From: an uncultured Haliea sp.
GTDB lineage: Bacteria; Pseudomonadota; Gammaproteobacteria; Pseudomonadales; Halieaceae
Length of the DNA: 64,000 bases
NCBI GenBank assembly: GCA_913062625.1
Contig: CAJXWP010000002.1
Location: 62,001 to 126,000, forward strand
Reading direction: 5' to 3'
Under the pieces are notes generated by a model. It searched no databases and was not told the origin of the DNA. It saw only the letters and a program-made list of their open reading frames with translations. How positions within the stretch are numbered: the stretch's first letter is position 1; every line of letters begins with the position of its first letter. The translations under genes were made by a program, and so were the position numbers. Positions 8,418 to 57,658 of the stretch are shown here, in pieces.

Positions 8418-9839
8418 ATGCATAGACATCACGACCCATTAAAAGACGCAGTAGCACGACCGCTCTGGCACGACCCCGAAATCATGCGAGCTCCCGAGCC
8501 TGCATTATCCGGGAGTGCAGATTGTGAGTTGCTGATTGTCGGAGGTGGATATACCGGACTTTGGGCTGCTCTGCAGGCCAAGGAACGCAAGCCCGACATC
8601 GACATTATTGTCATCGAGCAGACTTTTGTCGGAGACGGAGCCTCAGGCCGTAATGGGGGTTTTCTGTCTAGCAGCATTGCTCACGGTGAGACCAATATTG
8701 ATGCCCAGTTTCCCGGAGAGGCAGACAAGCTCGAGCAACTCGGCGAACAGAATATCAAGGAGTTACTGGAAGCCCTGGAACGCTACGACATCGATGCGCA
8801 TTACGAAAAAACCGGAGTGACCAATGTCGCCCTGGACCCGGAGGCAGCTGTCCGCCTGTACGAAGAATTCCTGGTGCGACAAGCAAGCGGTGAGGACGTG
8901 GTGTGGTATGACAAAGAGGGTATGCGCGAGCAGGTCAATTCCCCGAAATTTTATGGTGGCTGCTGGCAGCGCGGACACCAGGACGGTGTTGTTGATCCCA
9001 TGCGCTTATGCCTGGGCTTGAAAAATGTACTGCTCAATCAGCTTGGCGTTCGCATTTTCGAGGGTACTCGCTTGAAAAAGGTTATGCCCGATGGCAAAAC
9101 CAGCATGCGGGCTATTTGTGAGGCTGGTGAGATCCAGAGCGAAAAAGTGCTAATGGCCACCAATGCCTATACCAACCCCTACCGCAAAATTAATCGCGCC
9201 ATCGTGCCGGTTTGGGATTATCAAATCGCGACAGAGCCGTTGACGCCGCAACAGCTTGACCTAATCAACTGGGGTAAAACGGAATCGCGGCATGCTCTGT
9301 CGGATTTCACCAATCTGTTCCATTACTTTCGCCTGACCAGAGATAATCGCATTACCTGGGGTGGCGGCGGGGCGGTTCGCTCGTATTTCAATCGCGGCAT
9401 CGATATAAAGTATATGGACGCGCCAGCACGCTACGCGCAATTGGCCACCGAGTTCTTCCACATGTTTCCGCAACTGGAAGGGAACGTGAAATTCTCCAAT
9501 AAGTGGGGTGGCATTATCGCCTCATCCACCCGCTTTTGTATGGTGCCCGGGGTAGCATATGATGGCCGTCTGGCTTGGTCGGTCGGGTATACCGGCCATG
9601 GTGTCAGCGCTTCGCGGTTTGGTGCACGAATCGGTATTGAGTTGCTAGGGTACAAGCCCTCAGAAGTAATTCGTATGCAGTTTGTCACTAAGAATGCGAC
9701 ACCGTGGCCGCCCGAGCCATTCCGCTGGATAGGCATACGCCTTACTGAGCACGCGTTGGCTAGGGCCGACAGAAACGGCGGCAAACGCGGCTTGTGGTTG
9801 AAGCTTCTGGACATGATGGGCTTCGGTTTTACCTGTTAG
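8418..9839 (+). CDS. FAD-dependent amine oxidase of the DAO family (PuuB/OrdL-like)
   Basis: 473 residues. The Rossmann FAD motif is at about residues 38-47 (LLIVGGGYTGLWAA), followed by SGRNGGF, typical of gamma-glutamylputrescine oxidase and its DAO relatives. C-terminal WGGIIASSTRFCMVPG and YTGHGVSASRFGARIG form the second FAD contact. The enzyme would oxidise a primary or secondary amine to an aldehyde with O2 as acceptor, feeding the aldehyde dehydrogenase just upstream. Its stop overlaps the stop of the convergent SpdH-like gene by 4 bases. The exact amine is not determined. Confidence 0.87.
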   Translation: MHRHHDPLKDAVARPLWHDPEIMRAPEPALSGSADCELLIVGGGYTGLWAALQAKERKPDIDIIVIEQTFVGDGASGRNGGFLSSSIAHGETNIDAQFPGEADKLEQLGEQNIKELLEALERYDIDAHYEKTGVTNVALDPEAAVRLYEEFLVRQASGEDVVWYDKEGMREQVNSPKFYGGCWQRGHQDGVVDPMRLCLGLKNVLLNQLGVRIFEGTRLKKVMPDGKTSMRAICEAGEIQSEKVLMATNAYTNPYRKINRAIVPVWDYQIATEPLTPQQLDLINWGKTESRHALSDFTNLFHYFRLTRDNRITWGGGGAVRSYFNRGIDIKYMDAPARYAQLATEFFHMFPQLEGNVKFSNKWGGIIASSTRFCMVPGVAYDGRLAWSVGYTGHGVSASRFGARIGIELLGYKPSEVIRMQFVTKNATPWPPEPFRWIGIRLTEHALARADRNGGKRGLWLKLLDMMGFGFTC

Positions 9840-11761
9840 GTCTGCTCCTTGACAGCCCGCCACGCAGCATCAAAGGCTGCATCCATCAGCGCAATCGCCT
9901 CGGAATCTGTGTTGGCAATGGAGATACGCCCGAACTGTGCACGGCCAATCTCGTGGGGTGCCTGTCCTTCCTCCCATTTTGGGTCGTCCAGTGCGAGATA
10001 GGGGTAGGAATAGCCGTGGGGAATGCGGTTGACGGTGATGGCCCGAATGTCGCGCTCGTGGTTGAAGCCGTGCTTGCCCAGTAAAGACTGCAATTGCTCG
10101 CGGATATCCTGTTCGTAGCTGGCGAAGGGGGTGGCGTATATTTTGTGACGCCCCATACGCAGCTGGTCGCGCCCTGATCCTTGTTCATCCGATGTAGTTA
10201 TCGTCATTGGCGAGTTCATCATGAACACCACCATCGGGTCATCCGGTCCGCGTGGGGGTTCGTATCCCCCGACCGTCATTGACGGCGCTGTGCTCACCCA
10301 CTGGAACGGATCATAGGGGCACTGGAACATTGTTGCGCCCAATTCGGAGAAGGCACGGCCGTTTTCCAACTGTACGTTGGCATAGACAAAAGGTGTCTTG
10401 ACGCCGTAGCGCAGGCCTTCCTTCTGTCGTTCCGGCATTTCAGGACACAGATGGGGTATGAGGACGTTATAGCAGGCCAGAACGCTGTGATCAGCGGTGA
10501 CACGCAGGGGCTTCCCCTGCTGCACGTAATCGACTTCAACGTGTTTACCGTCGACTTCACGCACGCCAACTACCGTGCTATTGAGCCGAAGCCGAGTTGC
10601 CTGCTCATCTTTGTCCAGTGCGGTGTAATCGAATCGGGCGATGGCGACGTCTTCTGGCCCCTTCATGTCGGGGGCAACACCGGGTATCAGTTTTTGTACC
10701 AGCAACCTGGCCACAGAGGCATTGCCATCTGGGAACATGCGCACCTCCAGAAGGCTTTCCAAAAAAACTTCCCCAACAGAAGCTGCTGCTTTACCCAGCC
10801 AGCCCATCGCTTTAATGCCGCTGGCGCCGTTGCCGACGGCTTCCAGCACTGTGAGGTGCCATCCAGAGAAGCCTGACAAATGGAGGATGATTGCATTCAT
10901 TATCGGCAGGGTGTCCTCATTGAGGCCGACGCGTTCCAGCAGGAATCGGTTGTAGCTGACAGAATTAACGTAGTCCCATTTCTCGCTGAGTGACAGTCCC
11001 TCGAGGAAGTCTCGTTGGCCACCAAAAAAGTCGATTAAAATGTCTTGCTCGCTACTGGGTAGCGGCAAGGCGCGTACTTTTTCCTCGTAACCTTCACCGC
11101 CGTACATGACCGCGTTCCAGTTGCCACCCACTGTCACGTAGCCGTCCGGTCCTGGTATTGCCACGCCATTATCGGCATCGAGCTTGCCTGCCAGCATAAA
11201 GTTGTCCGGTGTATTGATGTCCATCGTCGCAACAAAGTCATCATCGATACCGATGTCGGTCATCAGTCCCCCAGCTGCTTTGCTGAAGCTACTGGGGGTT
11301 TCCAGGTTTTGGGCGCCGCCCAGGCTCAGCATCATTCTGCCGTCCTGGTGAAACTCGTTACGTTTGGCATGGCCACCAAAGTCGTCGTGATTATCGAGCA
11401 GCAGGATGCGGGCCTCGGGGCCCATTTTCTTGCGATAGAAGTAGGCGGCTGCCAGGCCGCTCATGCCGGCACCGACGACGACCAGGTCATAGTGTTCGTC
11501 CAGCGTTTCGTATTGTGACGGCTTTTCTCCGCGCCAGGCCAGGTCGTGGGCCACTTCGAAGGAGCCCACGTGACTGCCCCGCATGCCGGTGAGGGTAGGG
11601 GGGTAATAGGCGGAGGAGTCTGGCGGGCTGAATGCCGTGGGAGTGCCAATTGATATCTTCGCGGCAGGCTCAATGTCGCTGCCGCAAGCGTGCAGCACGA
11701 CGCCAGCCGCGCCTATCGCTATCCCGTTCATGAAATCTCGACGTGTTATCTGTATTGCCAT
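9836..11761 (-). CDS. Tat-exported FAD-dependent spermidine dehydrogenase-like protein (paralogue A)
   Basis: 641 residues from the ATG at 11761. An apparent TTG start 12 bases upstream is rejected because its GGAG is the ribosome site. The N-terminus carries a Tat signal (TRRDFMN) and a hydrophobic run ending in a cysteine (LHACGS), which could be a lipobox. Then come GMRGSHVGSFEVAH, the FAD motif VVGAGMSGLAAAY (about 94-106) and LLDNHDDFGGHAKRNEF, all typical of bacterial spermidine dehydrogenases (SpdH). It would oxidise a polyamine in the periplasm. It is divergent from a TetR gene and very similar in layout to the protein at 15921. Substrate is inferred. Confidence 0.8.
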   Translation of the reverse strand: MAIQITRRDFMNGIAIGAAGVVLHACGSDIEPAAKISIGTPTAFSPPDSSAYYPPTLTGMRGSHVGSFEVAHDLAWRGEKPSQYETLDEHYDLVVVGAGMSGLAAAYFYRKKMGPEARILLLDNHDDFGGHAKRNEFHQDGRMMLSLGGAQNLETPSSFSKAAGGLMTDIGIDDDFVATMDINTPDNFMLAGKLDADNGVAIPGPDGYVTVGGNWNAVMYGGEGYEEKVRALPLPSSEQDILIDFFGGQRDFLEGLSLSEKWDYVNSVSYNRFLLERVGLNEDTLPIMNAIILHLSGFSGWHLTVLEAVGNGASGIKAMGWLGKAAASVGEVFLESLLEVRMFPDGNASVARLLVQKLIPGVAPDMKGPEDVAIARFDYTALDKDEQATRLRLNSTVVGVREVDGKHVEVDYVQQGKPLRVTADHSVLACYNVLIPHLCPEMPERQKEGLRYGVKTPFVYANVQLENGRAFSELGATMFQCPYDPFQWVSTAPSMTVGGYEPPRGPDDPMVVFMMNSPMTITTSDEQGSGRDQLRMGRHKIYATPFASYEQDIREQLQSLLGKHGFNHERDIRAITVNRIPHGYSYPYLALDDPKWEEGQAPHEIGRAQFGRISIANTDSEAIALMDAAFDAAWRAVKEQT

Positions 11762-11780
11762 TGTTGTCTCCAATTACTTT

Positions 11781-11820
11781 ACATGTCAGATGACATGTTC
11801 TAGCATGTCAGTTGACATGT
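11781..11820. promoter_or_regulatory. Twin palindromic TetR operators
   Basis: Two palindromes lie side by side in the divergent promoter: ACATGTCAGATGACATGT (11781-11798, perfect) and GCATGTCAGTTGACATGT (11803-11820, perfect over the inner 16 bases). Their centres are 22 bp apart, about two helical turns, so two dimers would bind the same face. The core is TGTCA-NN-TGACA. The site begins 20 bases upstream of the SpdH-like start and runs to 18 bases before the GTG of the TetR gene, so it should control both. Confidence 0.8.
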
Positions 11821-11838
11821 CAAATTTTGGATGGTCCC

Positions 11839-12411
11839 GTGACGGATAAGCGCAAGCAACAAATTCTACAAGCGGCAATTGAGCTTGTTGCAGATGAGGG
11901 CTATGGAAGCCTGAGTATGCGCGCTCTGGCGCGCGCCAGCGGTATGAAACTGGGTGCGCTGCAATATCACTTCCGTACCTGGGGCGACCTGCTTCGGGCG
12001 CTCGTGGACTATATCGCTGAAGAAATTCGTCAGGCATTCGAATCGCGCAAATTACATGAGGGCTCGCCGAGTGTTGCGGAAATCGCGGCGTTCATGCTCG
12101 ACGATTCCGCCGGCACCGGGGAGGGATTGCTCGGTGACAGGCTTTGGCCACAACTCTGGGCCATGGAACAGGTGGAGCCAGTGGTGTCCGACCTGTTGGA
12201 GGAAGTCTATGCCGAGTATCTGGAAATCCTCGAAAGAGCAATGGAAGCGGCGGGAATCGAGTCACCCCGAGCGGAAGCGCTTTGCCTGATGTCACTGCTG
12301 GAGGGTGAATCACTTTTCACCGGTAAGGGTAGGCGCTGGGAAGGCGACAGAGAAGCCGTGCGCGAAACAATCCTGAAACTTATTAATGAAAGATACGGAG
12401 ACAAAAAGTGA
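11839..12411 (+). CDS. TetR-family transcriptional regulator
   Basis: 190 residues if the GTG at 11839 is used; upstream TTG codons at 11812 and 11827 also fit the frame, but the first lies inside the operator. The N-terminus is a TetR helix-turn-helix: KRKQQILQAAIELVADEGYGSLSMRALARASGMKLGALQYHF in segments, with conserved G and YHF. The C-terminal half is the ligand domain. The twin palindromes just upstream suggest autoregulation and repression of the divergent SpdH-like gene. A membrane-protein gene overlaps its 3' end (GTGA) and is probably co-transcribed. Confidence 0.88.
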   Translation: MTDKRKQQILQAAIELVADEGYGSLSMRALARASGMKLGALQYHFRTWGDLLRALVDYIAEEIRQAFESRKLHEGSPSVAEIAAFMLDDSAGTGEGLLGDRLWPQLWAMEQVEPVVSDLLEEVYAEYLEILERAMEAAGIESPRAEALCLMSLLEGESLFTGKGRRWEGDREAVRETILKLINERYGDKK

Positions 12412-13127
12412 GCACAGCACAAACATTGGACTACCAAATTAATAGACTTGGGTTCTGGTCGGTGATCGTTGCGATTACCACGGGCGTTGTATCCATGTTT
12501 TTCCCACTGGACGCCCCAGGTGGTTACACCGCAGAGCATGTAGATCGTGTGGCCTGGCTGAGTGCTAATAAAGGTGAATTTATCGCCGGCTGGGTGAACC
12601 AGATAGTGGCTATGTTCAGTTTGTCAGCGGCGTTTGCCTGCGGTGCCTGGGTGGTCGCAGGGAAAAACTCGCTCCGTGCCATACTCGCATTGTTGTTCGT
12701 TGCGATGGCTACGATGGCCTTTATTATTCCGAAATTTATAGCAGTATGGACCATACCCCTGCTGGCAGACACCATTACAGCCGGGGCGATGGGTGCAGAG
12801 CTGGCTGACCCTTTGCTCCGCATGCTGAACGTTTCGATTCCCTTTTCCCTGTATACCTCTTTCGATTATCTGGGTTTCTGGTTGTATTCGGTTTTTGCCC
12901 TGTTAGCCGCCGGCCCACTCTACGGTGACAGCAAGAGCGCCAAGATATCGGCTGTTGGCCTGGGTGTGTTCGGTATGGTCTACCAGGTCTTGATGGTCGC
13001 TTTGTTCCTGGGTGCCATAGCACCGGTAGACATTGAAGCTTATTTCATAGGCGCTTCCCTGCTGCTGCTGTTTCATTTGGTTGCCATGGCGTTTGTTTTT
13101 AAAAGATCGATGTCCTCCGCCTCGTGA
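12408..13127 (+). CDS. Polytopic membrane protein, unknown function
   Basis: 239 residues. The GTG start overlaps the TetR stop (GTGA), with GGAG about 9 bases upstream, so translation is coupled. Hydrophobic segments such as FWSVIVAITTGVVSMFF, IVAMFSLSAAFACGAW, AILALLFVAMATMAFII, YLGFWLYSVFALLAAGPL, VFGMVYQVLMVALFLGAI and AYFIGASLLLLFHLVAMAF indicate about six or seven membrane helices. It resembles DUF4386-like proteins in its helix layout, but I cannot assign it. The operon context suggests that the same signal sensed by TetR controls it. Confidence 0.75.
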   Translation: MSTAQTLDYQINRLGFWSVIVAITTGVVSMFFPLDAPGGYTAEHVDRVAWLSANKGEFIAGWVNQIVAMFSLSAAFACGAWVVAGKNSLRAILALLFVAMATMAFIIPKFIAVWTIPLLADTITAGAMGAELADPLLRMLNVSIPFSLYTSFDYLGFWLYSVFALLAAGPLYGDSKSAKISAVGLGVFGMVYQVLMVALFLGAIAPVDIEAYFIGASLLLLFHLVAMAFVFKRSMSSAS

Positions 13128-13290
13128 TTGTCTCGTAGGTGGCAGGGCCGACCTGAAGTGCGCCCAATTCAAGATTTTTGATTCGATGGTTTATAGGCTA
13201 AGTAAAAAGTGGAAAGCTCCGCCTGAATAAAAAGTCACTATAAGAAGCGTAAAAATACATCAATAAGGTAATGCTGTTATGGAGAATAAA

Positions 13291-48026: not shown

Positions 48027-49121
48027 ATGGCTACATCAAGTGTGACATCGCCGCCCATCGTGCCCATAGAGGGCACGCCCAGTCGCCCTGTAGTCTGGTG
48101 GGCCTGTATCGGTGTGTTGTTTTTTGCTTTGCAACTCTATGTCTGGATCGCATGGGTGACTTCTGATTTGTTTACACCGACGCTGGTGGGCGATTCTGCG
48201 GTACCCACGTTTGTTGTTGGCTTTGCCAGGTTCTGGGAGCTTGTGGCCGTCTTGTTGGGCCTCGGTGCCCTAGGCCTGATTATCAAGAGCTATGTCAAAG
48301 ATGCACGCTTGTCCGCATTGGCCGTGTTTATTGCTGCCTGGGGGACAACAATCTGGCAGGACCCCTTCATTAACTTTCTGCGCCCGATGTTTAGTTACAG
48401 TTCGGTTTTTTTCAATTACGGTTCCTGGGCGCCATTTATCCCGGGATGGATTTCGCCCAACGCATCTGCCATGCCTGAACCACTGTTTATGCTGGTGGGC
48501 ATGTATACGGTTTTTTGTGTCTTTTTCTCCCTGTGTGTGTGCTGGACGATGCGCTGGGCCAAAAACAGGTGGCCGACGATTGGTGTATTGCAGCTTATAT
48601 TAGTGGGGTGTCTGGCGGGCGTCATCTACGATTTGATCCTGGAATTTTTCTGGCTCAGGATGCAACTCTATTCCTATATAGGCGCCATTCATGAGGCGAC
48701 GCTATTTGCAGATAATATCTGGCAAATGCCACTTTACAACCATCTTGTTTGGGGATTTCTGGGCATCGGGGTAGCAGGGTCACTTTTTTATTTTCGTGAT
48801 GACAAGGGACACATGTTTGCAGAGCGCGGTGCTGAAACGTTTACCTCAAAAACCGGCAATGCCTTTATGCGCATCTTTGCGGTTGGCGGTTTTATTAACG
48901 TAAGCTTTTTAACCTATTCAGTCATTATTGCGATTTCGGTTTTGTGGAATGACCCCTACCCTGAAACTTTGCCTAGCTGGCTTATCAATGGTTTGTGTGG
49001 CCCCAATTCGGCTTATGTTGAAGTGCCATGCCCCACGCATGAAACACCCATTCCCATGCCGCACTCGGGACCGGCACTACCTGCTACTGGCCCGGATGGA
49101 AGCGGATATCCATTTGAATAG
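48027..49121 (+). CDS. AveC-family (spirocyclase-like) membrane protein
   Basis: 364 residues with about seven hydrophobic segments. The N-terminal WWACIGVLFFALQLYVW, then TTIWQDPFINFLRP, FFNYGSWAPFIPGW, PEPLFMLVGM and LEFFWLRMQLYSYIGA correspond, by my recollection, to conserved blocks of Streptomyces AveC, the dehydratase/spirocyclase of avermectin synthesis. It lies 98 bases after the SDR and ends a run of catabolic genes. A GGTTTTTAT-like AT bias is seen in places. Function here is unknown; a membrane cyclase, dehydratase or lipid-active enzyme are options. Confidence 0.75.
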   Translation: MATSSVTSPPIVPIEGTPSRPVVWWACIGVLFFALQLYVWIAWVTSDLFTPTLVGDSAVPTFVVGFARFWELVAVLLGLGALGLIIKSYVKDARLSALAVFIAAWGTTIWQDPFINFLRPMFSYSSVFFNYGSWAPFIPGWISPNASAMPEPLFMLVGMYTVFCVFFSLCVCWTMRWAKNRWPTIGVLQLILVGCLAGVIYDLILEFFWLRMQLYSYIGAIHEATLFADNIWQMPLYNHLVWGFLGIGVAGSLFYFRDDKGHMFAERGAETFTSKTGNAFMRIFAVGGFINVSFLTYSVIIAISVLWNDPYPETLPSWLINGLCGPNSAYVEVPCPTHETPIPMPHSGPALPATGPDGSGYPFE

Positions 49122-50876: not shown

Positions 50877-51674
50877 ATGGACCCATGGAGATTAATGAAC
50901 TTTGTGATGATCGCTATTTTTGTGGCGGCGATTGTCTGGCTTTACCGCGGAGACAAGGAAGCAGGGCATGTCCGCACTGTCACCTGGCTGTTTCTTGGTG
51001 CGACATCAATGTCGTGGATGGAGGCGGTATGGGACTGGGTGCTGTACTACCGTTTCAATCCTGAGCAGTTCTGGTTGATGCCAGAATGGATCCCTGTGCT
51101 GGGCATGGGCGGCGGCTTGCCATACATTATGCCCACCATCTATGGCCCCTGGTTTGTCCTGGTGAACTTTGCCACAGCCGTGTGGATGGTACAGCGCAAT
51201 TTCTCACTGAAACAGATATTTGTGGGCGCGCTTGTTCTTGGTGCATTGGAGGAGCTGATTCTGGAGATTCCCTTCCTCCTGATCGGGACCTATTCCTATA
51301 CTCGCGCATTGCCGGGCTTCCACATTTTTGAAGGACAAGCTCAATACCCCCTCGATGTGCCGTTATTGATGGCACCGGTAATGGCATTTATCACTGTGTT
51401 TATTGCCGTTGCTATCCGCCGGGAACAGGCGAGAGCGGCGGGGACCGGAACGCCGTCCAATACCAGCACTTTCTTCGGCCGCATGCGTGAGTTACGGGCC
51501 TTTGGTGGTACTGACGATCGCAAGGGGATCAATGCGATTTGCGTGATCATCGCTGCGCATCTCGTCTTCCTCATGCCGATGATACCGGCATTGATCATGC
51601 GCGTTACCGGCCTTAAGACCGATATCGGTGACGCAACAGCATTCGGGTGGCCGGCCTATCCATTTCCCATGTGA
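50877..51674 (+). CDS. Second AveC-like membrane protein
   Basis: 265 residues from the ATG at 50877 (GGGAGAG upstream); an ATG 15 bases earlier overlaps that ribosome site. About six to seven hydrophobic segments. SWMEAVWDWVLYYRF, GPWFVLVNFATAVWMV, LEELILEIPFLLIGTYSYTRA and LDVPLLMAPVMAF match the helix and motif order of AveC (LLLExPF, YSxxRAxP, PLxxxLL) more distantly than the protein at 48027. It is divergent from the TetR gene. Paralogous membrane enzyme or partner of the first AveC-like protein; function unknown. Confidence 0.62.
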   Translation: MDPWRLMNFVMIAIFVAAIVWLYRGDKEAGHVRTVTWLFLGATSMSWMEAVWDWVLYYRFNPEQFWLMPEWIPVLGMGGGLPYIMPTIYGPWFVLVNFATAVWMVQRNFSLKQIFVGALVLGALEELILEIPFLLIGTYSYTRALPGFHIFEGQAQYPLDVPLLMAPVMAFITVFIAVAIRREQARAAGTGTPSNTSTFFGRMRELRAFGGTDDRKGINAICVIIAAHLVFLMPMIPALIMRVTGLKTDIGDATAFGWPAYPFPM

Positions 51675-51716
51675 TGCTATTGCCCTGTCGATCAGCGTAA
51701 TCCAGGTATCCCACAG

Positions 51717-51751
51717 AAAAAATCAGCTTCCACTTTCACGCTGGAAGCTGA
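51717..51751 (-). terminator. Rho-independent terminator of the UGSC operon
   Basis: On the minus strand TCAGCTTCCA, a 9-base loop and TGGAAGCTGA form a perfect 10-bp stem followed directly by TTTTTT. The stop codon of the shortened companion gene lies inside the loop. It ends the minus-strand operon that begins at the MaoC gene near 57598. Confidence 0.85.
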
Positions 51752-52020
51752 ATTCGAATGCGCACCGGTCCCCAGGATGGCATGACCATTGAGTAGAGGC
51801 CACTACCTCCTGCCATCACGGCGGCTACAGCTACTTTCTCAATGGTCGCCATGCCCTGCCCTGGCCCCATTGTGCCCAAGCCCAAATCGCCGTCCTGACC
51901 AGAGGCCAAGACCATACGCCGAACGCGTTCTGCAGTAGGAATTACAACCGGTAAGCCATCCGTACAACGCCGAATATGCAGGTCTTCCAACGCCGCTTCT
52001 TCGTCAAAGGCCGATAACAT
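51736..52020 (-). pseudogene. Shortened companion of the UGSC protein
   Basis: 94 residues, starting one base after the selenoprotein candidate's stop (TGAGATG). It reads DGLPVVIPTAERVRRMVLASG, then IEKVAVAAVMAG, the N-terminal layout of a larger family usually found with UGSC proteins (from memory, DGLPV, then VEKIAINAVMAGC followed by a long domain). After AVMAG the sequence jumps to GSGLYSMVMPSWGPV and stops within the terminator stem-loop. This looks like an internal deletion that removed most of the protein. It may now be non-functional. Confidence 0.55.
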
Positions 52021-52021
52021 C

Positions 52022-52558
52022 TCAGTCACTGTTTGCGTCCAGCGCAGCACCAACCTGTGCCGCAAAATCTTGCGCCACCTTGCGCATGTGTTGTGCGCCG
52101 CTCCCGGCAATCGGGTGTGGAAGTTTTACTCGAGGCACGTCGGGCATACCCAATGATTCAGCTACAAAATCGCCTTGAGGCCAGAATTCTTCTGTAACCA
52201 ACGCTACTGCGGGAATACCGAGATTTGCTAAATTGATTCCGTCACGCACGGTGCCGGTGGGGCAAGAGCCTCAGTGCCCGCAGACAGCTACCGCCGCAGA
52301 ACAATGCTGACTTATGTCTGCTAGCATATCTTCATTAGCAGGAACTGTAGGATTGCCCTTGTTATACGCAAGAACTTCAATCGATAGTTCAATGGCCTGC
52401 ATGGCGGCCGCTAACTCGCTTAAAAAGCTCTCTGAGTCAGGAAATCCGTTGGCGAGAAAACCAACCTTTATGGCACTGGCCCCTTTGATATAGGCAGATA
52501 ACTCGTAGGGCGTTATAGCAGCTGCAAACTGAGCTTCAGGGTTATGGTATTCGGTCAT
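52022..52558 (-). CDS. UGSC-family selenoprotein candidate (in-frame UGA at 52271-52273)
   Basis: Two open stretches in one frame, 95 residues then 82, are separated only by a TGA. Read through, the junction is AVAVCGH-U-GSCPTGTV, the exact UGSC motif (Sec-Gly-Ser-Cys) of UGSC/GrdB-like selenoproteins. The total is 178 residues with Sec at 96. Both halves are protein-like (GIPAVALVTEEFWPQGDF, RVKLPHPIAGS after it). A small hairpin with G in its apical loop follows the UGA at bacterial SECIS distance. Seleno- or thiol-based reduction is the likely chemistry; the role in this operon is unknown. The alternative is a nonsense change of a cysteine codon in a CGSC homologue. Confidence 0.75.
52239..52257 (-). 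promoter_or_regulatory. SECIS-like stem-loop after the UGA
   Basis: In the mRNA sense CCG-G-CAC-CGUGC-GUG-A-CGG folds into two 3-bp stems with one mismatch and a 5-base loop. The loop has G as second base, followed by U. It lies 14-32 bases after the UGA, with the loop about 20 bases on, which fits bacterial SECIS rules as I recall them. Short, so only moderate support. Confidence 0.45.
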
Positions 52559-52631: not shown

Positions 52632-53612
52632 TTATTGCTTGAGCAGCACCTTGCGCCTGTCGATTAACGAATCGAGCAGGCTTGATAACACATGGGTTCG
52701 TTTCACCAGCAAATGGGCGTCGTACTCCACGGTAAAGCCCACGCCGCCGTGAACCTGAATATTGGTGCGGGCGTTTTCCAGCGCTGCACGGGCTGACATC
52801 TCCACCGCGGCGGCGATTTTCCGGGTGGCATCTTCGTGTTCATCCTGCAGGCTCAACCCAGCGTAAACACACTGTGACCACGCGGCCTCGTTGCGTACTG
52901 CCATATCTGCGCACAGGTGCTTGATGGTCTGGAAGGCGCCGATAGGCTGCCCAAACTGCTCGCGCTCCCCGGCGTAGCTAACCGCTGCTGCGCAAGCCGA
53001 TTCTGCGATGCCAGTAAGCACCGCACATAAGCCAATAGCCAGACGCATTACATCACTCTCACCTATGTTCTTGAGTAGTGGGGTTCCGGTCAGTGTTGTC
53101 CTTGTCAGGCTTACAGACTCATCAGTGCCTTTGAGCGTTTCCGCTTTGGCTATTGCTGCAGCCGGGAACAGATTGATTTTATTGTCATGGCAGGTGAGCA
53201 GGTAGTCCGCGTCGCCTCCGTCAAACATCAGATAGTTGTCTTCTTTCGTGGCAAGGGCGATGGCTACACGCTTTTCGCCATTGATGAGCGAGTTGGCTAG
53301 CCCTGCCTGATCGTGACGACTGGCAAGATTGGCAGTGAAAGCCGTGGCTAACACTGTGGGAGAAATCAGCTGGCGTCCGGCCTCGCGGGCCAGAAGTATT
53401 TCTTCGGCAATGCCAAGGCCGCTGCCGCCGAGGTGCTCCGGGCAGCTGACACCGAACCAGCCCAGTTTCACAAACTGCTGCCAAAGTGCGGCGGAATAGG
53501 GGGTGCCCAGGTTGATTGTTTCCTGGTAGCGCCGAATCGGTACCTCGCTAGAGAGAAACTCGCCGATCACACTGACAATTTCGGCCTGCTCGGTTGTGGG
53601 AAGAAGGTTCAT
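52632..53612 (-). CDS. Acyl-CoA dehydrogenase, short (beta-type) subunit
   Basis: 326 residues, shorter than the usual 380-400. SYAGEREQFGQPIGAFQTIKH and IQVHGGVGFTVEYDAHLLVKR show the C-terminal ACAD domain; the GSGSD FAD motif of the middle domain is lacking. It resembles the first half of the fused protein at 33110. Small subunits like this pair with a full-length partner in alpha2beta2 acyl-CoA dehydrogenases for bulky substrates. The partner is probably the gene 9 bases upstream in the operon. Confidence 0.88.
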   Translation of the reverse strand: MNLLPTTEQAEIVSVIGEFLSSEVPIRRYQETINLGTPYSAALWQQFVKLGWFGVSCPEHLGGSGLGIAEEILLAREAGRQLISPTVLATAFTANLASRHDQAGLANSLINGEKRVAIALATKEDNYLMFDGGDADYLLTCHDNKINLFPAAAIAKAETLKGTDESVSLTRTTLTGTPLLKNIGESDVMRLAIGLCAVLTGIAESACAAAVSYAGEREQFGQPIGAFQTIKHLCADMAVRNEAAWSQCVYAGLSLQDEHEDATRKIAAAVEMSARAALENARTNIQVHGGVGFTVEYDAHLLVKRTHVLSSLLDSLIDRRKVLLKQ

Positions 53613-53621
53613 TCGGTCTCC

Positions 53622-54803
53622 TTAGCGGCTCTTGGGCAAGCCGAGAACTCGCTCGCCAATGATGGATCGCTGAATCTGCTCGGTGCCGGCGGCGATAGTA
53701 TCGGCGTAGCGAAACAGGTAAGTGCGCACCAGCTCTTCATGCTTGCCCTGGTAAACCAACCCGTCGGCTCCCAGTAGCTCCATACCGAAATGGCTAATTC
53801 GCTGGCTCAGCTTGGCAAAGAACAGACGCACAATTGATCCTTCAGGCCCGGGCAGATCCTGATTGCTGTTGCGGGAAATGCTCATGTAGGTCATCGCTTT
53901 CAAAGCTATCACCTCTGCCTTGAGACCGGCTAGGCGTTCGGCAATTTCATCATGTGCGATAGCCGCTCTTCCGCCGATGTGGACTTCTCTTGCCAGTTGT
54001 TCCATCTTTACCACGTCGTGTTCGAGTTCTACCTGGTCGGCAATGAACGCGGTGCCGCGCTCGAAGGACAAGGTGGACATGGCGGTGCGCCAGCCGTTAT
54101 TGAGCCCGCCGATGACCTGTGACAGCGGGATGCGAACATCGTCATAGAAGACCTCACAGAACTCGCTCTCTCCGGCCATATTGCGGATCGGGCGTATGGT
54201 GATGCCCGGAGTTTTCATATCACAAACTACCCAGGTGATACCCCTGTGCTTTTGGGCGTCGGGGTCGGTGCGCACGAGCAGTTCCTGGAAGTCTGCGACA
54301 TCGGCATAGCTGGTCCAGAGCTTCTGGCCGTTGATGACCAGGTGGTCCCCGTCGATTTCTCCACGGGTGCGCAAACTCGCCAGGTCAGAGCCTGCTCCCG
54401 GTTCTGAGAACCCCTGGCACCAGACGGCGCTGCCGTCGAGTATCTTTGGCAGGTGCTCGGCCTTGTGGTTGTCTTCACCGCAGGCGATCAGTGTGGGGCC
54501 TGCGTGCGCGAGTCCGACAAAGCAAACGCTTTTCCAGCCGCCTGGAGGAACATCGGCGGCGGCATATTCCTCATACCATATAAGCTGTCGGGTCAGAGAC
54601 AAGCCTCGTCCGCCGCAGGCCTCGGGCCAGGCAATACCCGCCCAGCCTGCGTCGAAGAGGGTTTTCTGCCAGGCGGTGTCATGTTCGCGGCAGGCGGCCA
54701 GATCCGCCACAGAGGGACGCTGCTCCCGCGGGCGGTTATCCGCAAGCCACTGGCGCACGTCTTCCCTGAACAGTTGGTCATCGGGACTGAACTGAATATT
54801 CAT
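53622..54803 (-). CDS. Acyl-CoA dehydrogenase, long (alpha-type) subunit
   Basis: 393 residues, full length. Motifs: IAWPEACGGRGLSLTRQLIWYEEYA, WCQGFSEPGAGSDLASLRTRG (FAD-binding), LVINGQKLWTSYADVADFQELLVR and GTEQIQRSIIGERVLGLPKSR. It introduces a double bond alpha-beta to the CoA ester. Its ATG overlaps the stop of the ligase (4 bases). With the short protein at 52632 it probably forms a heteromer; the same pair occurs as one polypeptide at 33110. Confidence 0.92.
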   Translation of the reverse strand: MNIQFSPDDQLFREDVRQWLADNRPREQRPSVADLAACREHDTAWQKTLFDAGWAGIAWPEACGGRGLSLTRQLIWYEEYAAADVPPGGWKSVCFVGLAHAGPTLIACGEDNHKAEHLPKILDGSAVWCQGFSEPGAGSDLASLRTRGEIDGDHLVINGQKLWTSYADVADFQELLVRTDPDAQKHRGITWVVCDMKTPGITIRPIRNMAGESEFCEVFYDDVRIPLSQVIGGLNNGWRTAMSTLSFERGTAFIADQVELEHDVVKMEQLAREVHIGGRAAIAHDEIAERLAGLKAEVIALKAMTYMSISRNSNQDLPGPEGSIVRLFFAKLSQRISHFGMELLGADGLVYQGKHEELVRTYLFRYADTIAAGTEQIQRSIIGERVLGLPKSR

Positions 54804-56311
54804 TGAGTATGGCTCTCCAGCAGTGCCCGGATTGCAGGCAGGTCCGGTTTCAAGGATGCGTTGCGGGGTATGGACCTAGCCACCAGGAAGCGCACGGGGA
54901 CTTGGTAGGCCGCCAGACCCTCCCTGGCGAGAGACGCCACCGCTTCCAGATCCAGTTCGTCAGTCCCGGTTGTGGGTTGGAGGAGGGCAGCGGGCACTTG
55001 GCCGAGCCTGTCGTCATCAAGGGCGACCACAACAGCCTCTTCGATATCCGGGTGAGTCTGTAGCACGCTCTCCACGTCGGTTGGCAGGATTTTGAAGCCG
55101 CCGCGGTTGATGGCGGCATCGGCGCGGCCCCTGACCCACAGGAAGCTCTCGTCATCGAGGATGGCGATGTCGGTGGTAGGTACCCAGGCTGCCGCGCCCG
55201 ATGCGGACTGCACCGAACGGATTTCGAGAATGCCTTCTTTCCCACTGGGGAGTTCTTCGCCGCTGGTGGCATCCACAACGCGCAATTCTGTCCCCGGGAA
55301 CGCCCGGCCGACGCTGCCCAGCTTAGCGGGCATGAATTCACGGTGCAGTGGGAAACTCCATCCAGCCACGCCCCCGGCAAATTCGGTGGCGCCGTACACA
55401 ACCAGCAGGGGTACAGCATACCGGGCCTCAAAAGACTGCTGGATATCGGGCCGCAAAGCCGCGCTACCGCAGATCACGGCCTTGAGACTGGCCAGCTTTT
55501 CTGCGGGGACATCCTCATCCAGAATCATTTTTACCGTGGCCGGTACCAGGTGGCCCAGTTTCAACTGATGGCGCTGTACAGCATCGCTCCAGATCTTCAC
55601 GTCAAAGCGGTCCATCAGGATTTGTGGCCGGGCGTCGATAATTGCCTTCAGGGTGTGAAACAGACCACCGATGTGCGCCAGAGGGTTGGCTACGATAACG
55701 GGCGTATCCTTGATTTGCACGGCACTGCTGCCGGCCTCGGGCATCTGATCAGAAATCGGGTGCAGCAGCCCTGGATACTTGAGGGGGATACGTTTGGGCG
55801 TGCCGGTGGTGCCACTGGATTGCATCATGACCGCGACGCCTTCCAGGGGGGCGCAGAATCCGGTGAAGGCCATTCCTGCACGAAGTTCCAGCCCGACCCC
55901 TGTAGCCGTATCTGTCGCTTGCAGCACGGCATTTCCGTTCCTGTCGACCGCCGCCATTAATGACTCATCGTCGATATCATCGCCCGCAGCGATCAGCAGG
56001 GGCAATCTCAAAGACTCAAGCTCAGCGCCAATTTTTGCGCCTGAATGCATTGGATTAAAGGTGATGAAACAGTGGCCGGCGCGGGTAATGGCCAGCAGCG
56101 CGGCAACGGTTGCCGCATTGTTGTGGGCAATGACGCCGACCTGACTACCTATCGGCAGGGACAGGGAGCCAAAGATGTTATCGATGGCGTGAATACTGCC
56201 CGCCAGTTGTTCCCAGCTGTAGCTGATGTCATGGACATAGATTGCGGTAGCCTCGGGGGCTAGGGTCAGGACCTGATCCAGATGGCGGCGAAATTCTTCG
56301 TGGTTACGCAC
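54800..56311 (-). CDS. AMP-dependent acyl-CoA synthetase
   Basis: 503 residues. The phosphate motif is AVMMQSSGTTGTPKRIPL, followed by LLVVYGATEFAGG, a weak GRADAAINRGGFKILPTDVESVLQ and a C-terminal catalytic-lysine-like region ASLKPDLPA. Slightly atypical (arginine after TPK), but the fold is clear. Third gene of the region-3 ligases. It overlaps the ACAD gene and starts 3 bases after the MaoC gene's stop, so all share a transcript. It may activate a branched or ring-derived acid. Confidence 0.88.
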   Translation of the reverse strand: MRNHEEFRRHLDQVLTLAPEATAIYVHDISYSWEQLAGSIHAIDNIFGSLSLPIGSQVGVIAHNNAATVAALLAITRAGHCFITFNPMHSGAKIGAELESLRLPLLIAAGDDIDDESLMAAVDRNGNAVLQATDTATGVGLELRAGMAFTGFCAPLEGVAVMMQSSGTTGTPKRIPLKYPGLLHPISDQMPEAGSSAVQIKDTPVIVANPLAHIGGLFHTLKAIIDARPQILMDRFDVKIWSDAVQRHQLKLGHLVPATVKMILDEDVPAEKLASLKAVICGSAALRPDIQQSFEARYAVPLLVVYGATEFAGGVAGWSFPLHREFMPAKLGSVGRAFPGTELRVVDATSGEELPSGKEGILEIRSVQSASGAAAWVPTTDIAILDDESFLWVRGRADAAINRGGFKILPTDVESVLQTHPDIEEAVVVALDDDRLGQVPAALLQPTTGTDELDLEAVASLAREGLAAYQVPVRFLVARSIPRNASLKPDLPAIRALLESHTQ

Positions 56312-56314
56312 TGC

Positions 56315-57598
56315 TCAGCTCTCCAGTGGTTCTTCTGTGCCCCTCAGTTCCATCATTTTTGCACCTCGTTCGCGCAACTCCCGCGGCGCGACCGGCAGTG
56401 AGACAGGGCCGAACTCCCGGGAAGGCAGAAGAATTTCCGCGGTACCGGTGACCGAATCTTCATCGCGTTGGTTAGTGCCGCAAACCTTGATCGTCACCAC
56501 ACACCCAAGCTCATCGCGACGCTTATCTGTAACCTTGCCGCGCATGATGTGGGTATCGCCAAGGAAGTTAAACGTATTAAGCCGGTTGGACATACTCCTG
56601 AGCCATGCGTCATCCCCCATCCAGTTAGTGAGCAGGTGACTCATCCAGCAGCTGCGCATCTGGCCATAGTCATAGGGCGCGGGCAGGCCGATCTGTTGGG
56701 CCCAGTTGGGATCCCAGTGCATCCGCTGCATGACATCTGGCACGCCATACTCGTCGGGATTGTAAAAGCCTTTCAGTTTCTGGGTGCGTCCTTTCCAGGC
56801 ATGGCGCAGCGGGCCGATGCCATACTCGCCCATACCCCAGCCGACGTGTTGGGAAATGACGTCGGTGACAGTCATGGGGCCTTTTACTATCGGTACCAGT
56901 TGGTCACCCACGGCGACATCTTCGAACCAGCGGGGCAGGCCACCGCGCCGTTCCTCGGCCTCATAAAGTGCGTTGATTGCTTCGATGTCCGCCTCCGTGT
57001 AGGTGGCACGTTCGATGTTGGCGTGTTTTCCTGTTTTCTTGGAGCCGCCACGTTCTGCACTGACATAACTCTCGTAGCGGACCGCTACCGGATCTCCCAT
57101 ACGGTCGACATGCATGAACCGGTAGGTCTCGATGATGGAGCGACCGCCGCTGAAACTGGACGTCTTGACCTCCACGCTGGAGGTACTGGAATCGACGAAG
57201 GTCTCATCACCCCTATAGATCGGCTTGTACCATTCCCAGCGCACGCCAGAGTAGTATTTACCTACGCCGCGAAACAAACCGCGGAACAAGTTTTTTTTGT
57301 CTCCACTCAGGGGCGGGATTTCGCATCGGCCGGTCGCGATGGGATACATAGGCGCTGCGACCATGCCGCGCCATCGCGATTGCTTACCGTAGGACTCATC
57401 CTGGTAGAGCGGGTTGTCATCACCATAGCCCCAGTTGAAATTTTTCATGGTCGCTGCCGCGGCTGTGGGTGACAGCGTATCGCAGCGTAAAGGGACCGGT
57501 ACGCCGATTTGCCGGCGGGCGCGGTCGACATCTTCATCGGTGATTTCTGCGCTGATGTCTTTATCTTTGCCGCCATCGACTTGTTTTGATTTGGCCAT
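56315..57598 (-). CDS. MaoC/FAS1-like dehydratase family protein
   Basis: 427 residues from the ATG at 57598; an ATG 36 bases upstream is unlikely. The N-terminal half has MVAAPMYPIATG and a FAS1-like dehydratase outline; the C-terminal half has VTDVISQHVGWGMGEYGIGP, WAQQIGLPAPYDYGQMRSCW and TNWMGDD, which fits the second hotdog. Two fused hotdog domains are common in MaoC-type 2-enoyl-CoA hydratases. It hydrates the product of the acyl-CoA dehydrogenases in the same operon. It is the promoter-proximal gene. An N-terminal charged tail (KQVDGGKDKD) is unexplained. Confidence 0.82.
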   Translation of the reverse strand: MAKSKQVDGGKDKDISAEITDEDVDRARRQIGVPVPLRCDTLSPTAAAATMKNFNWGYGDDNPLYQDESYGKQSRWRGMVAAPMYPIATGRCEIPPLSGDKKNLFRGLFRGVGKYYSGVRWEWYKPIYRGDETFVDSSTSSVEVKTSSFSGGRSIIETYRFMHVDRMGDPVAVRYESYVSAERGGSKKTGKHANIERATYTEADIEAINALYEAEERRGGLPRWFEDVAVGDQLVPIVKGPMTVTDVISQHVGWGMGEYGIGPLRHAWKGRTQKLKGFYNPDEYGVPDVMQRMHWDPNWAQQIGLPAPYDYGQMRSCWMSHLLTNWMGDDAWLRSMSNRLNTFNFLGDTHIMRGKVTDKRRDELGCVVTIKVCGTNQRDEDSVTGTAEILLPSREFGPVSLPVAPRELRERGAKMMELRGTEEPLES

Positions 57599-57658
57599 GG
57601 TATTCCAGCTCTTTGCTGCCCCTGTACAGGGCATAATGTTAGTTAAGTGGTGATAGCA

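Follow-up and report, generated by a model that had tools for sequence, protein, structure and literature searches.

Can an in-frame TGA next to a row of acyl-CoA genes be a selenocysteine codon, and if so, does the gene that carries it still work? The question is raised by a gene in the window, by which we mean the whole 64,000-nucleotide stretch of an uncultured Haliea sp. contig analysed here. A sequence-only reading of this DNA had claimed that an in-frame TGA joins two protein-like halves and that reading through it gives CGH-U-GSCPTG, the UGSC motif, without stating the strand. Translation of the minus strand from 52558 to 52022, with TGA read as U, gave 178 residues with a single internal TGA at codon 96 (52271..52273, minus strand) and a terminal TGA, and the conceptual product reads ...AVCGH-U-GSCPTGTVRDG... 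around the selenocysteine (Sec). The list of open reading frames stops at the TGA of codon 96, so that a 95-aa ORF alone is called for this gene, in line with the expectation that ORF callers would split or miss it.

Search of the read-through protein against family models, which had been suggested as a check, matched it with the Pfam UGSC family (PF24696) over residues 26-173 (E 3.4e-37, 128.6 bits, cut-off 25). The NCBIfam model NF041046 was matched nearly over its full length (positions 4-146 of 147; 2e-27, 96 bits), but the score fell under the curated strict cut-off of 125 bits of this equivalog, and hence the gene is filed here as a member of the Pfam family and not of the NCBI equivalog. 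The Sec or Cys expected of the family is present as the TGA of codon 96, followed by GSC. GrdB and PrdB models did not match the protein in either Pfam (E 1e-3) or NCBIfam (E up to 1).

Scanning 84,980 species genomes gave 191 relatives, the best 80 of which, mostly from marine Gammaproteobacteria, were kept. When the motif position was inspected for Cys or Sec, TGA was found at the same site in all 80 of these best relatives, and [YW]GHUGSCT[TS]GTVR was likewise kept in all 80. The half downstream of the TGA was conserved in each, instead of the plain stop and decayed downstream sequence expected had the TGA been a mere terminator. The nearest orthologue shared 69% identity with the window protein, the value being 61% upstream and 78% downstream of the TGA; the downstream half is thus real protein and no product of chance. 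Intact orthologue pairs at a like distance showed a similar contrast between N- and C-terminal parts, which argues that the part after the TGA was translated through nearly all its history. One orthologue (L069, 4001-4030) carries an extra in-frame stop other than TGA at codon 8, after MIEYVNP, which points to a sequencing error or to a further copy in decay.

A SECIS-like hairpin had been noticed about 20 bases after the UGA. The element, CCG-G-CAC-CGUGC-GUG-A-CGG (52239..52257, minus strand), is intact in the window and has 6 bp and the loop CGUGC, 20 bases separating the UGA from the apical loop. It is formed by codons +5 to +10 counted from the UGA (T-G-T-V-R-D, ACC GGC ACC GTG CGT GAC). 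In an alignment of the window with 79 orthologues (n=80; one of the 80 loci was not extracted), five of these six codons showed zero synonymous variation and the sixth a single exception; most other conserved degenerate codons nearby lay at about 0.9 to 2 bits. All 80 sequences are able to pair the consensus hairpin CCG.CAC-CGUGC-GUG.CGG, the window element being unchanged, and the pairs are invariant except for one U-G in place of C-G. Such invariant pairing leaves no covariation to be scored, and the evidence comes from the frozen synonymous sites. The folding energy of the hairpin was not better than that of shuffled sequences (z about 0); thus, thermodynamics alone would have dismissed an element that synonymous-site conservation strongly supports. 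The Rfam model SECIS_1 found no match in the genome and none in the controls either, so its blank on the genome is uninformative. We are therefore practically certain that the gene belongs to the UGSC family and carries a bacterial SECIS.

The UGSC family (PF24696/NF041046; Zhang and Gladyshev 2008, PMC2398784) and the window gene are alike in sequence, in the UxxC with TGA-encoded Sec, in the SECIS directly downstream and in occurring in marine and aquatic bacteria. The window copy differs in that its UGSC is preceded by Cys-Gly-His and followed by Pro, in its destroyed partner gene and in the lack of Sec machinery in the assembly. It is best seen as a new but degenerate member of the known family. 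Among the selenoprotein families of aquatic metagenomes, UGSC ranks with the commonest; a 2026 review still places it among the families with largely uncharacterized functions (PMC13188914).

The partner is a gene of about 355-360 aa that directly follows or overlaps the UGSC stop in all 80 orthologue loci (the best 80 of 191), one of the 80 partner genes being cut by a contig end. Of 28 related genomes, the 11 with UGSC all had it and the others did not. Neither Pfam nor NCBIfam has a model that matched the partner protein. A link of UGSC to a second conserved, cysteine-bearing domain was reported as UGSC/Unknown_1 fusions in the GOS survey (PMC2398784); both arrangements join UGSC to a second protein part, which in the case of the window was a separate overlapping gene. 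In place of an intact partner of about 360 aa, the window holds a remnant (51674..52029, minus strand). It starts normally, with a GTG at 52029 overlapping the UGSC stop, and its first ~74 codons are intact, but a 726-bp deletion then takes the sequence from about residue 74-80 straight on to residue 336. A one-base gap after the deletion puts the remaining recognisable end of the partner (SSVKVEADFFCGIPGL) out of frame, with an early TGA at 51738-51736. The surviving fragment is 76% identical to its nearest relatives, which are 83% identical to one another, and the break is therefore recent. A second copy of the partner gene was not found in the window's genome.

The Sec machinery was then a pertinent point, as selA, selB, selC and selD had been proposed as a check on Sec insertion. 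The window's genome is a 3.07 Mb draft of 117 contigs, estimated to be 96.7% complete. In this assembly SelA had no match, the SelB search returned only other translation GTPases (best 99 bits, as compared to 347-394 for true SelB), tRNA-Sec had no candidate over the cut-off (best 45 bits, as compared to 64-77), and the sole SelD-like match, at 50 bits, was below the cut-off and of the same weak kind as is seen in most other genomes. Sec insertion thus lacks its machinery in the assembly as it stands; the draft state and a possible mis-binning of the contig limit this statement to the assembly. UGSC, SelA, SelB and tRNA-Sec were all absent from the four closest sister genomes as well (92-95% identity on a shared amidohydrolase), so the absence is in keeping with the lineage and does not have to stem from missing sequence. 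One sister tRNA cleared the tRNA-Sec cut-off by 2 bits in a genome without SelA or SelB and was taken for another tRNA.

Real SelD scored over the cut-off in all 17 congeners, the window's genome alone being without it among the 18, and the genome may thus have lost all selenium use. The flanks of the sisters' selD locus had no orthologue in the examined stretches of the window's genome. In the sisters (L159 4000-7324, L160, L161), a gene of ~360 aa adjoins a SelD of fusion length (~800 aa) in a conserved neighbourhood and is probably selU, a candidate selenouridine synthase. Elsewhere, a Halioglobus-like genome (G007) has intact selA, UGSC and partner, with tRNA-Sec on another contig, and a selB that is cut off after about 90 residues inside its contig (L133, G007:C1, 6780-7049); a second Sec system may be disappearing there. 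In a further genome (G013; L128, G013:C57), tRNA-Sec, selB and selA lie within 6 kb of a distant pair of UGSC and partner, so that machinery and client are together there.

The UGSC protein itself was examined for signs of decay. Four departures (A70P, A92V, Y93C and T100P) fall at columns conserved to at least 97%, the highest number among 81 sequences (mean 0.43), and A92V, Y93C and T100P are all within five residues of Sec. Such changes may be a mark of decay in UGSC itself, though they are suggestive rather than conclusive. The tree branch of the window protein (0.32) was close to that of its sister L045 (0.30), its overall length not being raised. With the frame after the TGA and the SECIS intact and the branch hardly longer, any loss must be very recent, if the gene is not in fact still in use. 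The family and the SECIS of the proposed selenoprotein stand, and its working in this genome does not agree with the broken partner and with an assembly that lacks sel genes. We consider the cassette to be probably a recently inactivated relic, the loss of function being deduced from these lesions.

In a tree of 82 UGSC proteins, the window gene grouped (support 99/81) with one from another family of the same order, a long way from the UGSC genes of its congeners. DNA around UGSC had no close match in the sister genomes, and positions 1-20 kb of the window were likewise poorly matched there. The last ~45 kb of the contig, its UGSC-bearing end, have a higher G+C than the rest and atypical tetranucleotides. 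Tree, DNA matches and composition fit a cassette that was acquired horizontally, within a catabolic island, as we infer; the same data would also fit a mis-binned contig. No tRNA genes were present on the parts of the contig examined. A 3.3-kb stretch occurs twice in the assembly at 82% identity (window 9838-13130 and G000:C106:401-3690).

Mis-binning bears on the most serious alternative, namely that UGSC is a working selenoprotein whose sel genes are missing from the assembly or whose contig came from a Sec-using bacterium. As the contig matches the sisters poorly, window DNA having no long close match there, it could come from another organism with Sec machinery, and in that case the argument from missing machinery falls; selA was indeed present in 7 of the 9 genomes with UGSC-TGA in the set of relatives, and the intact SECIS and frame and the normal conservation after the TGA are what a working gene would show. 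However, the partner lesions and the altered surroundings of Sec would remain even then: two independent lesions sit in a partner that is never missing among the 80 orthologues (best 80 of 191), and near-invariant residues beside Sec are changed. Also, the absence of selA, selB and selC agrees with all four nearest sisters, and the contig's initial part and the window up to 16 kb share the composition of the genome. A working selenoprotein is therefore unlikely here, and recent inactivation remains our preferred reading.

That reading would also fail if the partner lesions were artefacts of assembly or of strain mixture and the living cell had an intact cassette. For this speak the fragmented state of the draft genome and the position of the deletion between short direct repeats of 8 bp, ATGGC(A/G)GG, which are present at both places in the nearest orthologue. 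But assembly k-mers are far longer than an imperfect repeat of 8 bp, real deletions at short direct repeats are a common type of mutation, and a second, separate lesion of one base lies downstream. We regard an artefact as very improbable.

Structure prediction gave some indication of what the intact cassette might do. The AlphaFold2 model of the UGSC protein (51 sequences; pLDDT 88.9) is confident and flavodoxin-like in fold; Sec96 and Cys99 lie where the helix 99-112 begins. Many flavodoxin-like chains aligned with the model at VIA-align Z 8.7-9.2 (114-125 residues, rmsd 3.0-3.7), and among chains of every kind the top one reached Z 11.1 (132 residues, rmsd 3.1). Sequence searches of solved structures gave chance matches only for both proteins, the UGSC protein having no sequence relative in the PDB. 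The predicted beta-alpha-beta architecture resembles that of flavodoxin, lumazine synthase, PurE and CheY, but sequence identity to these proteins is low and the Sec-x-x-Cys at the helix start is UGSC's own. The survey of 2008 had guessed a thioredoxin-like fold (PMC2398784); the predicted model shows the flavodoxin-like one instead. The partner model was confident (pLDDT 83.7) and had no clear fold relative; similarities to a class I fumarase subunit (Z 4.6) and to cyclic amide hydrolases (Z 5.4) were within noise.

We propose that the window copy derives from a horizontally acquired marine cassette of two genes, UGSC and an overlapping partner of ~360 aa of unknown family. With the hairpin just after the UGA as their guide, SelB and Sec-tRNA of intact relatives would decode this codon as selenocysteine. 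The product would be a flavodoxin-like protein whose pair Sec96-x-x-Cys99, at a helix start, probably acts together with the partner protein as a redox or nucleophilic centre. In the simplest reading, UGSC would carry the reactive Sec, and the partner would supply or bind the substrate. In the window's genome, the cassette appears to have stopped working very recently, the partner being deleted and frameshifted, the neighbours of Sec changed and the sel genes missing from the assembly; ribosomes would then end at the UGA, leaving a useless fragment of 95 residues. UGSC and its partner could, as a tentative proposal, be an uncharacterised obligate two-subunit selenoenzyme of marine bacteria, and of such a system the window would hold a natural knockout in early decay, either acquired without Sec machinery or having outlived it. 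The obligate partner tells experimenters which two proteins to express together. For selenoprotein annotation, the window is a candidate example of early decay and a caution that an intact SECIS and frame do not prove Sec insertion.

UGSC had been described as the last gene of an operon of MaoC, ligase and acyl-CoA dehydrogenases. These genes are present on the same strand, i.e. a MaoC/FAS1-like dehydratase (56315..57634, Pfam) as first gene of the row, an AMP-dependent acyl-CoA ligase (54800..56311, NCBIfam/Pfam) and two acyl-CoA dehydrogenases (53622..54803, pimC-like, NCBIfam/Pfam, and 52632..53612), all on the minus strand, but UGSC is not the last, as the broken partner follows it. A recruitment of UGSC by these genes to carry out a redox step of their pathway, as had been suggested, is highly improbable despite the shared strand and the gap of only 73 bases after the second dehydrogenase, since the row stood beside UGSC in none of the 80 orthologue loci, whose examined flanks gave only scattered weak matches (26-47% identity) to single genes of it. 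Besides the partner, no neighbour recurred in more than 13 of the 80 loci, and none gave a steady hint at function. Downstream of the remnant, window 50862-51674 matches the AveC-like spirocyclase family (PF17198), and 48027-49121 resembles it by eye, both lying between catabolic gene rows.
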